Source: Rapana venosa
Taxonomy: Eukaryota; Mollusca; Gastropoda; Neogastropoda; Muricidae
Length of the DNA: 64,000 nt
Assembly (NCBI GenBank): GCA_028751875.1
Contig: CM054140.1
Location: 31,357,393 to 31,421,392, forward strand
Direction of reading: 5' to 3'
The notes below the pieces were generated by a model. It did not search any database, had not been told where the DNA came from, and saw nothing but the letters and a program-made list of their open reading frames with translations. Both the position numbers and the translations under genes were made by a program. Positions 53,434 through 57,700 of this stretch are shown piece by piece. Every line of letters begins with the position of its first letter. The first letter of the stretch is position 1.

Positions 53434-54732
53434 CTACACAGCCGTCACCATGTAAGGCAGACTGACAGACTGTTCATCCACAGTATCATCAGAAATATCA
53501 CTCCAACTTCCCGACGACTTTTCCCCAGGCACAAAGGTTCTGGACTTGTCCTCGTTAGTCAGCGTCAGCTGTTTGACAGTGGCACTCCTGTTCATGGTCA
53601 CCGTCTTCACGTTACTCTTCTTCTGATGAGAACAAGCGTTCGGAGACTTGGATGTGTAGCAGTAAGTCTTGAAGGGGTTGTTTTCCACGAAAGTTTCCGA
53701 GTCAGTGCTGGAGGCAAAAGAAAAAGACGGGTGAGGGCTTGAGGGTGAAGTGTTTTCGATGGTGTCGTGAGAACTACAGACCGGTGAGGAATCGTGAGAT
53801 GTGGGAGACAGTTCGTTCCCAGAAGCACACTCAGAACCACTAGGAAAAGAGGGACTGCTGGAAGGTAGCTGATGCAAAGTGATGGTTCCAAAGTTGTCTA
53901 CATACTGGTCGTCTGCTGTGGCAGAATCAGCGCAGGCCAAGTCAGCGGTTGCTCCGGAATGCCTTTGTAACAGAGAACTCCCGCTAGACATTGTCTGTGT
54001 TGTCACAAGACTCGGTGTCTTGCGGCTGGAGGATAGGCAGTGACTGACGGAGGTAGTGTCTGTCTCCACGTGAGAGGAGCTCAGCTCGCTGGAGGAGATG
54101 CTAGACGATGGTGACTCACAGATGGCTTTCATGTGGATCAGCCTGGGAGCTGTGGTCCTTTTCAGCAGCAGTCGTTTGTCACACTCACCATCTTTCCCCG
54201 CCTTCTGTCCATGATCCTTTTCTTTAGGAAATGTTGAACTCTTTCTGGAATTTGCATTATCGTTGCGATTTGGACTGGACTCCACACCCGACACTATCAC
54301 TTTTTTGTTGTCAGAATTTCTGTTTTTAGCATCAGAGCTGCTGCTCCGTTTGTTATCTGTTTTGTCTTCGTCACTTTCGTCGTCGTCGTCTGCCTCCCGT
54401 ATGGGCGGCGGAGAGTCGTTGGGTTTGGAGGTGGTGGAGAAGGATCGGCACCACACATCTCTCCGCCTGTCCATCAGAGAACGGCCCGAGGGCTGCTGCT
54501 TTCTGGCGGCGCCCATGGAGTGTAAAGAGTGACGCTTAAACCTGGGGTCTGTGGATCGGTCTCTGCGCGGGGACGAGGTTCCGATAGAGGAGTTTTCTCT
54601 TCTGCTGACGGTGCTCTTGGCTTTCTGCAGCCTGGGCTTGGGCCCAGACTCCACCTCGTTGCCGTGCACCACCTCTTCGTTCTCGTAGTGCACGGAGAAC
54701 ACCTTGCAGAACCTCGTCCGCCGCTTCTGGCG
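53434..54732 (-). CDS. in-frame open extension after the TGA (432 codons), Ser-rich, PDZ-ligand end
   Basis: Directly after the TGA come CGC CAG AAG CGG CGG (RQKRR), then [20 protein letters not shown] and a Ser/Thr/Asp-rich cytoplasmic-type sequence ([34 protein letters not shown]) ending YMVTAV. There are no stops for 432 codons, and it is not a simple repeat; by chance this would be extremely rare. No acceptor or start context is seen that would make it a separate exon or cistron. It has no domain I recognise. T-A-V at the C-terminus fits a class I PDZ ligand. Confidence 0.75.
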   Translation of the reverse strand, partial: RQKRRTRFCKVFSVHYENEEVVHGNEVESGPKPRLQKAKSTVSRRENSSIGTSSPRRDRSTDPRFKRHSLHSMGAARKQQPSGRSLMDRRRDVWCRSFSTTSKPNDSPPPIREADDDDESDEDKTDNKRSSSSDAKNRNSDNKKVIVSGVESSPNRNDNANSRKSSTFPKEKDHGQKAGKDGECDKRLLLKRTTAPRLIHMKAICESPSSSISSSELSSSHVETDTTSVSHCLSSSRKTPSLVTTQTMSSGSSLLQRHSGATADLACADSATADDQYVDNFGTITLHQLPSSSPSFPSGSECASGNELSPTSHDSSPVCSSHDTIENTSPSSPHPSFSFASSTDSETFVENNPFKTYCYTSKSPNACSHQKKSNVKTVTMNRSATVKQLTLTNEDKSRTFVPGEKSSGSWSDISDDTVDEQSVSLPYMVTAV

Positions 54733-57700
54733 TCATAAGTCATTGGCCAGCAAGGGCTGCGAGGACGTGGCATCTGACGACTTCCGGTCACGGGAATCCG
54801 TTTCCGTGTCGGAGCCCAGGTCCAGGCCCTCCAGCTGGTCATCCTCATAGGAGATGGAGGTGAGGGTGTGGAAGGCGTGGATGGCCATGCGGTTCACCCG
54901 GTGCTCCTTCTCCGTGCGCTTGTCCGGCATGCTCTTGAAGAAGTTCTCCAGGGTGACCTCTTCCTCCAGCTCCTTCTTCTCCGTGCGCAGGTAGCGGACG
55001 ATCATGACCATGACTCCTGTGGAGTAGAAGACCAGCACCACGATGATGTACATCACGGCGCCTGGGTCTGACTCTTCCATTGCCTGCCAACACACAAAAA
55101 GAAACAGATGGCGATGGTTAAGGCCACATCTCAGAAAAAAACATTAAAAAATCGTTAGGATAAGAGTAAAGAAACAAGTAAGGATGATAATATTAAGGTT
55201 AAGAAACAATCATGGAGAATGCCAAGAAACAGATAAAGACAATTATAGCTATTGCTTGAAAACAGCTTCAGAGCTTAGAAACAGACAGAAAAGTCAGAGC
55301 TTAACAAACATAAAGACAACAATGACCAAAGCCGCACTTAATAACTAACTCTGTTTGTTTGTTTGGTTGTTTTTTTTGGCATGATTATCCACGACTTACC
55401 TCAAAACTTTGTCAATTGTTGTTGAATTCTTTTATCTCAGTTTAAAAGTCCATCATATTGATAGAAAAAGCAAGAAAGACTTCGTGTTCTTTTAGTTGTC
55501 AGTTCTGGCCATTCCTACTTCCAAAACGCTTTATTCTCAGTGGCAGATGGGGAAGAAATGGATATACACTTAGGGATAGGAGGAATCATTTTATCTTTTA
55601 AGAGACAATATCCAGAAATCGGCGAATGAGACGGTCACAGACACTTTCCACAGGCATTGTGCATAGTGTAGTGCATAATACAAAGGCTACTGTTCTTCGT
55701 AAGGTGGTTTGGATGATGAATGTGGTTAAATGTGTTAATTTTGGCCCCCAAAGCTGTATTTTACCCTCGTTTTCCATGAATCTCAGAACTGAAACAACTT
55801 ATTTCCGGGAATTCCGCAATGATGACAGAATGGAAAACTATGATTTTCTAGGTCATGGTCTCTCAAATAAACCACTTTAACTGGCTTTTCGCTTTGGTAC
55901 TCCCTCCGTCCCACCTTTATATATATATATATAAATATATATTATATATATATATATATATATTTTATATATAATAATATATATAATAATATTTAATAAT
56001 ATAGAGAAGAGAGAGAGAGAGAGAGAGAGAGAGAGAGAGAGAGAGGCTATTGCAATTAAACAGCTTTAAAATAAAATAGCGACAAAATTCACTTGGTGTC
56101 CACCCAAATGGTAAACTCAGATCCCCTATCCCAACATAATACTCGCCTTCACCTCCCCCCCCCCCCCCCCCTCCCCGTACACACAATCTCTCTCCTCCCT
56201 CTCTCTCTCTCTCTTTTCTCTCTCTCTCTCTCTCTCTCTCTCTCTCTCTCTCTCTCTCTCTCTCTCTCTCTCTCTCTCTCTCTGCCAAGCCTCTGTAAGC
56301 CTCTGGCAGTACATACAGTTGTGCACAAAAGAGAAAGGAAGGAAATGAAACAAAACAGTGTTTATTTATTCACGAAATTTCCATAATTATGTGAATGGCT
56401 CTCTTTAATCCATTACTGTATTATTTCCTCTCAGGGCTGTTTAAGACCTTTCACTTATTGAGGAAAATCTCTGTGTGTGTGTGTGTGTGTGTGTGTGCGT
56501 GCGTGCGTGCGTGCGTGCGTGCGTGCGTGCGTGCGTGCGCGCGCGCGCGCGCGCGCGCAAATGGGCATCTGTTCTTTCATGACCATAACTTGTCCTCTTA
56601 TGCAGCTTTCCTCACCGCGTCTTGTTCATGCCTGTTTTATGGACAAGTCCTGACGCAGAAAGAGACATCCACTCTGTGGTTCTCTGTGCATGCTCACTAG
56701 AAAGGCCAGTCTAGGTTAACCCTTCAAGTAGACCGCAGGTGGCAGGTAGACTGTCTCCACATTAAACACTCAGCACCCCAGTCTTGTCCTTAAGTGAAGA
56801 GAGAGAGAGAGAGAGAGAGAGAGAGAGAGAGAGAGAGAGAGAGAGAGAGAGAGAGAGAGACAGAGAGAGAGAGACAGAGAGAGAGAGAGAGAGAGAGAGA
56901 GAGAGAGAGAGAGAGAGAGAGAGAGAGAGAGAGGAGTAGAAGCGATCTAAGAGATAACACACCATTCCACAAGAGTTTCGGGACTCGGGGTTAGGAGTCC
57001 TACTTTCCCTGTCATATCCCCACCCAAACACCCTGGCTGTCACCTCTCTCTTAGAAGTGTGATGTGTTCATTTGCCCAGTGCAAGGAGGGTATCTCTTTT
57101 GTCAGGAATTCTTTCCATCCTTCCACACCACCATGCCTCACCCCCCACCCCCCAGCCCCTTCCCCTCAGACAGTTCCTCTTTATTCAATTACCCCCTCTT
57201 CCTTCTCCTATTCAAGACTGTCCCTCCTTTTTTTCTGTTTATTTATTTAGTTTTCTTTTGTTGGTTGGTTCATAAAATAACACTGCTGCCTGTCTCCTAG
57301 GACAGTTAGTTATCCAATTTCAAAAGCAATTTTCCGGAATTTCTTGTTTTCTGTGCTCTGAGATTTGTGTTCTTGTGCAAGCCTCTTTCTCTCTCTTTAT
57401 CTCTCTCTCCTTCTCTCTCTGTGCATGTGTGTGTGCAATGGGCATCTGTTCTTTCATGACCATAACTTGTCCTCTTCTGCAGCTCTTCTCACAGGGTCCA
57501 GTTCATTTCTGTTTTACAGACAAGTCCTGACACGAAAGAGACACAAACCCACTCTGTGGTCATCTGCCCATGCTCACCAGGAGACGCAAGTCTTGGTTAA
57601 CACTTCATGCGGACCCCAGGTGGCAGGTACATTGTCTCCACATCAAACATTCAGTACCTCAGTCTTTAACTTTATTGAAGAGAGAGAGAGAGAGAAGAGA

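Follow-up and report, generated by a model that had tools for sequence, protein, structure and literature searches.

A minus-strand gene of the window (the 64,000-nt stretch of Rapana venosa contig CM054140.1 that was analysed) has a membrane exon whose frame reaches a TGA and then runs open for a further 432 codons. Conserved, programmed stop-codon readthrough seems to be the best explanation of this arrangement, with a probability of roughly two in three. Judged from the sequence, some ribosomes probably continue beyond the stop and thereby add a long tail to the protein. The features of the gene and of its surroundings are the following, in window coordinates.

61040 to 61867, minus strand: exon 1, 276 codons, phase 0, with a signal-peptide-like start (recognized by eye) and the ectodomain
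55083 to 53434, minus strand: exon 2, with the membrane segment, then the TGA, the open tail, and the TAG
54736 to 55083, minus strand: exon 2 before the stop, 116 codons, with the membrane segment (by eye) and a short cytoplasmic tail whose last residues are [10 protein letters not shown]
54733 to 54735, minus strand: in-frame TGA, next base C, in the context TTA TGA CGC
54727 to 54897, minus strand: best in-phase GT...AG pair, 171 nt, that would remove the TGA but leave the tail's conserved beginning intact
54583 to 54732, minus strand: predicted RNA structure that adjoins the TGA on its 3' side
53437 to 54732, minus strand: open Ser-rich tail of 432 codons that contains conserved blocks
53437 to 53448, minus strand: C-terminal VTAV, PDZ-ligand type
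53434 to 53436, minus strand: terminal TAG, which ends the 432-codon tail
52708 to 52713, minus strand: first AATAAA past the gene, 721 nt beyond the TAG

The gene would encode a short form of 392 aa and a long form of 825 aa, when the TGA is counted as one residue. Both lengths were proposed in a preliminary description of this DNA and are borne out by the reconstruction from exon 1 and exon 2. The same description placed the TGA at 54735-54733, interrupting one minus-strand frame with 432 sense codons after it, and its coordinates, frame, and lengths proved exact. The exon 1 junction is backed by the Babylonia areolata protein P0001, as the NSTK junction is common to both. Neither AATAAA nor ATTAAA occurs from the start of exon 2 to the TAG, so the tail likely lies on the same mRNA as the membrane exon. 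The VTAV end is of a kind that we take to be the class I PDZ-ligand type.

The position of the stop is shared with another gastropod. The gene model of Babylonia areolata LOC143280485 (P0001) has 396 residues, and its last residue is the Leu that precedes the TGA of the window. Identity with P0001 is uneven within the one gene, with 109 of 116 residues (94%) for exon 2 before the stop and 38% (99 of 262 aligned) for the adjoining ectodomain (61040-61867, minus strand). An ectodomain with just 38% identity marks a clearly different species, yet the end position was kept. Because the B. areolata model terminates at the same residue, two alternatives listed in the preliminary description, a base error and an allelic nonsense change private to this sequence, are unlikely. 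The original reading of the TGA as a candidate for readthrough has held up in the tests run here. The short form alone is annotated in B. areolata; if this species keeps the tail, standard annotation has overlooked half of its protein. P0001 is one of four proteins (P0001-P0004) matched in a protein search with the read-through exon, among 8000 scored candidates richest in common words. When just the membrane segment was used as the query (87 candidates), B. areolata was the sole protein recovered, and P0003 was missed.

Three proteins, P0002, P0004, and P0005, are relatives of the tail, with 38%, 38%, and 37% identity to it, respectively. P0005 was found by a second protein search, in which the 8000 candidates richest in common words were scored. 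P0002 and P0004 are about 91-93% identical to each other, and as near relatives they are not two independent witnesses. The block PRLIHMKA is identical in all four tails, and RFKRHSL and [10 protein letters not shown] are intact in three of the four, with one change each in P0005. The C-terminus is VTDV in all three relatives and VTAV in Rapana venosa, in line with the earlier claim of a PDZ ligand at the end of the tail. The frame downstream of the TGA, on whose conservation in relatives the preliminary description had made its proposal depend, is conserved at the protein level in these three proteins. When P0005 was searched against the 2.28-Gb assembly, this tail was the sole match (43 candidates). 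Because the tail is single-copy in the assembly and P0005 matches it alone there, the tail relatives are probably its orthologs.

The relatives differ in what they show of the gene: the membrane exon and its end in B. areolata, the tail alone in P0002, P0004, and P0005. In P0002 and P0004, the ORF starts at tail residue 11, which corresponds to the first GTG downstream of the TGA; the ORF of P0005 starts 3 or 4 codons further on (residue 15 when aligned by MAFFT, residue 14 in the better ungapped register). Such tail-only starts match the behaviour of an ORF caller after a stop, which suggests that the relatives also carry a stop just upstream of the tail; an intron at that place would look identical, and the stop in these three is an inferred one. 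Pattern scans of viral and genome contigs for the DNA of the relatives gave matches to the patterns, and no relative was confirmed among them.

None of 5000 dinucleotide-preserving shuffles of the tail remained open (median run of 20 codons, longest 200), which agrees with the earlier statement that openness over 432 codons is unlikely to arise by chance. The other five frames of the tail contain 9 to 25 stops each. With codon scores trained on two genome paralogs, frame 0 was positive and highest in all six 72-codon segments of the tail, the last one included; after the TAG, it was not positive in any of three 216-nt pieces. A search of the 2.28-Gb assembly with the tail gave one match, the tail itself (33 candidates scored). 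Downstream of the TGA, the earliest start-type codon (ATG, GTG, or TTG) is the GTG at tail residue 11, and no ATG occurs before residue 73. Conserved residues are present ahead of this ATG, namely 12-19 (P0002, P0004) and 64-70 (all three relatives, with one change in P0005), and therefore translation should enter the tail from upstream. An internal AUG start belonging to the tail was rejected, as the ATG at residue 73 cannot yield the whole conserved tail.

The two genome paralogs (L002 and L003) have 57% identity to the gene over the membrane segment (residues 3-96 and 3-94, respectively). Their stop-to-stop frames are 444 and 451 residues long and run from the membrane segment to the end without an internal stop, and the ends are LLVSDV and VLESDV. 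P0003 is of the same kind as these two long-tailed paralogs. Long tails with PDZ-type ends thus occur uninterrupted elsewhere in the family. These long frames with -SDV ends were counted in favour of readthrough. No homology of the window tail to the paralog tails was detected (hhalign probability 0.35%, with few sequences compared), and this was counted against it. By eye, [10 protein letters not shown] resembles SKYLPRVSLMF, and no claim is built on this likeness. A more diverged, partial relative of the membrane segment (L004, G000:C7:53042247-53045375) has 42% identity over 43 residues.

In domain searches, a weak likeness to KCNE (Pfam ISK_Channel, PF02060) was confined to the membrane segment, with E values of 0.11-0.2 for the exon, P0001, and P0003. 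The scores of 11.8-12.7 bits are below the gathering cut-off of 22.1, and L002 and L003 had no listed match; because the match is below the cut-off, kinship with KCNE is not claimed. In contrast to the small KCNE beta subunits, the family described here has long tails with PDZ-type ends. The family profile had no matches in PDB, where the exon query gave one weak chance match, and the one match in NCBIfam was far under the cut-off.

A stable structure is predicted within 100 nt 3' of the stop, from a single sequence. Counting the T of the TGA as +1, the model consists of a small hairpin at nucleotides +4 to +17 and a branched domain from +21. The predicted fold of the 150 nt after the TGA has -67 kcal/mol (z -4.73), which was reached by none of 200 shuffles. 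Exon 2 was scanned in 51 tiles of 120 nt, with 60 shuffles each. Under synonymous-codon shuffling the lowest z was at offset 12 after the TGA (-3.56), followed by offsets 252 (-3.09) and 222 (-2.90), and under dinucleotide shuffling the lowest values were at offsets 42 (-3.76) and 12 (-3.55). For the whole stretch, none of 500 synonymous shuffles reached the observed energy. With deeper shuffling of five further segments, 12, 1, 2, 0, and 144 per 1000 shuffles reached it; the weak segment (144 per 1000) contains nothing but the 54-nt inner hairpin. A 190-nt segment that includes the TGA stands out less (z -1.67, 9 of 200), and in its predicted fold the TGA is in the loop of a CTGGC/GCCAG hairpin (54726-54750). 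The values for this segment and for the two that gave 144 and 12 per 1000, together with the tiles at offsets 222 and 252, were counted against readthrough.

The leaky TGA-C context pointed out in the preliminary description is present as TTA TGA CGC, and TGA and a 3' C are enriched at insect readthrough stops according to an excerpt of PMC5100048. The same excerpt gives RNA structure within 100 nt for 9% of insect readthrough stops, as opposed to <1%. The paper's statement that abundant readthrough was not found among the non-Pancrustacea species tested counts against readthrough here.

By the proposed mechanism, most ribosomes would end at the UGA, and their product would be a single-pass membrane protein of 392 residues whose cytoplasmic tail is short. 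Some ribosomes would decode UGA-C as an amino acid, presumably aided by the downstream RNA structure; both the readthrough itself and the helper role of the structure are inferred. The 825-residue form made by readthrough would have a long, Ser-rich tail that ends in a PDZ ligand, and this ligand would anchor the long form to a PDZ scaffold, a role deduced from the last four residues. At a little under even odds, the gene could be an ancient gastropod switch, in which one family member gained a structured UGA-C that selection kept, the other members are long-tailed constantly, and the long anchored form is just a minor or regulated fraction.

The main rival, itself unlikely, is an exitron, i.e., alternative splicing within exon 2 that removes the TGA in some transcripts. 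The best in-phase pair has a donor-like CGG/GTGAAC at 54897 and an acceptor GCCAG/AAG at 54726, both in phase 0. Its donor scores 1.2, compared with 1.1 for the real donor of exon 1, but its acceptor scores -1.1 against 7.1 for the real acceptor, and 22% of the minus-strand AGs in the window score higher. The paralogs have GTCAAC at the position of the GTGAAC donor. This 171-nt splice would also remove VNR.AI.AFHTLTS, which is kept by both paralogs and P0003 between the membrane segment and the long tail. At 53707, an acceptor-like site has a score of 8.9, higher than that of the real acceptor, and tops the list of in-phase pairs. However, the donors that can be paired with it are weak (-2.1, -2.6, and -4.8), the first two of them being in or before the membrane segment, and splicing into 53707 would lose most of the tail plus the conserved blocks. 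Every in-phase pair flanking the TGA includes one or more weak sites. The splice-site scoring matrices were generic ones. Gene decay, by which a nonsense mutation severed the tail and left it as a relic that is now open, is improbable. It would fit the short-form annotation of B. areolata, but the stop is old enough to be common with that species, in spite of ectodomains that are only 38% identical. If 0.2 neutral substitutions per site are assumed, 432 codons should have gained 8.5 new stops, and the probability of none is 2e-4; with an assumed 0.05, it is 0.12. Moreover, codon bias holds through the last segment of the tail, and the C-terminus is conserved.

A-to-I RNA editing, which would convert UGA to UGG (Trp) in some transcripts, has in its favour the predicted RNA structure around the site and the precedent of hepatitis delta virus, where stop-to-Trp editing occurs. 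Since ADAR likes G least as the preceding neighbour and the target A would sit after a G, editing has little probability here. That the tail belongs to a separate gene or cistron, with an upstream exon or start of its own, would be consistent with the ORFs of the three relatives, which hold the tail only. It is very improbable, as the frame runs on exactly from the membrane exon and no ATG precedes tail residue 73 though earlier residues are conserved. Selenocysteine insertion at the TGA, the remaining alternative of the preliminary description, was rejected, with a negligible probability left to it. Molluscs do have a selenoprotein P with up to 132 UGAs, according to a title cited in PMC8310308, but SECIS was not among the eight weak matches of an Rfam scan of 49000-55200, and a loose home-made scan of the 3.5 kb after the TAG gave 0 SECIS candidates.

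Programmed readthrough of this stop would resemble that of insect genes (PMC13170385, in part) in the TGA followed by C, the conserved in-frame coding sequence beyond it, and the stable 3' RNA structure that is predicted here. Unlike the insect cases, this is a mollusc gene, and its extension is 432 codons long, as against an estimate of <10 codons for over half of the functional extensions in insects (PMC5100048, in part). Readthrough of the fly gene dfr is raised by a stem close to the stop; this stem starts at +9 and its spacing matters, as stated in a part of PMC13170385, whereas the main domain predicted here begins at +21. The nearest functional parallel is AQP4ex of mammalian aquaporin-4, a membrane protein in which a readthrough tail controls anchoring, with alpha-syntrophin as the anchoring partner and an extension of 29 residues (excerpt of PMC6444679). 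The Rapana venosa protein is unrelated to it, and here the putative PDZ-type end closes a tail of 432 residues.

Among lophotrochozoans, a portion of PMC3890597 describes a suggested readthrough case in Platynereis, the FVa/EFLGa neuropeptide precursor, for which the evidence is a second, conserved coding region without a Met of its own, with support from antibodies. That gene encodes an annelid neuropeptide precursor and not a membrane protein, and RNA structure is unmentioned in section 11 of the paper. No mollusc readthrough gene was found in the literature searched, which consisted mostly of titles and abstract openings, with passages of PMC8310308 and PMC10471768. Were a mollusc gene to combine a shared stop with a selected 432-codon tail and a well-placed structure, it would offer a recoding site open to direct testing.

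Other elements were observed elsewhere in the window. A transposase fragment (Pfam DDE_Tnp_1_7, E 3.4e-14), which we take to be of piggyBac type, is on the minus strand at 569-1000. On the plus strand, an open frame at 18389-18781 codes for an MBT repeat (Pfam MBT, E 6.2e-32) and is presumably an exon of a plus-strand gene. A tandem array at 24235-24953 consists of 14.9 copies of a 48-bp unit with 96% match, and three frames are open through it.
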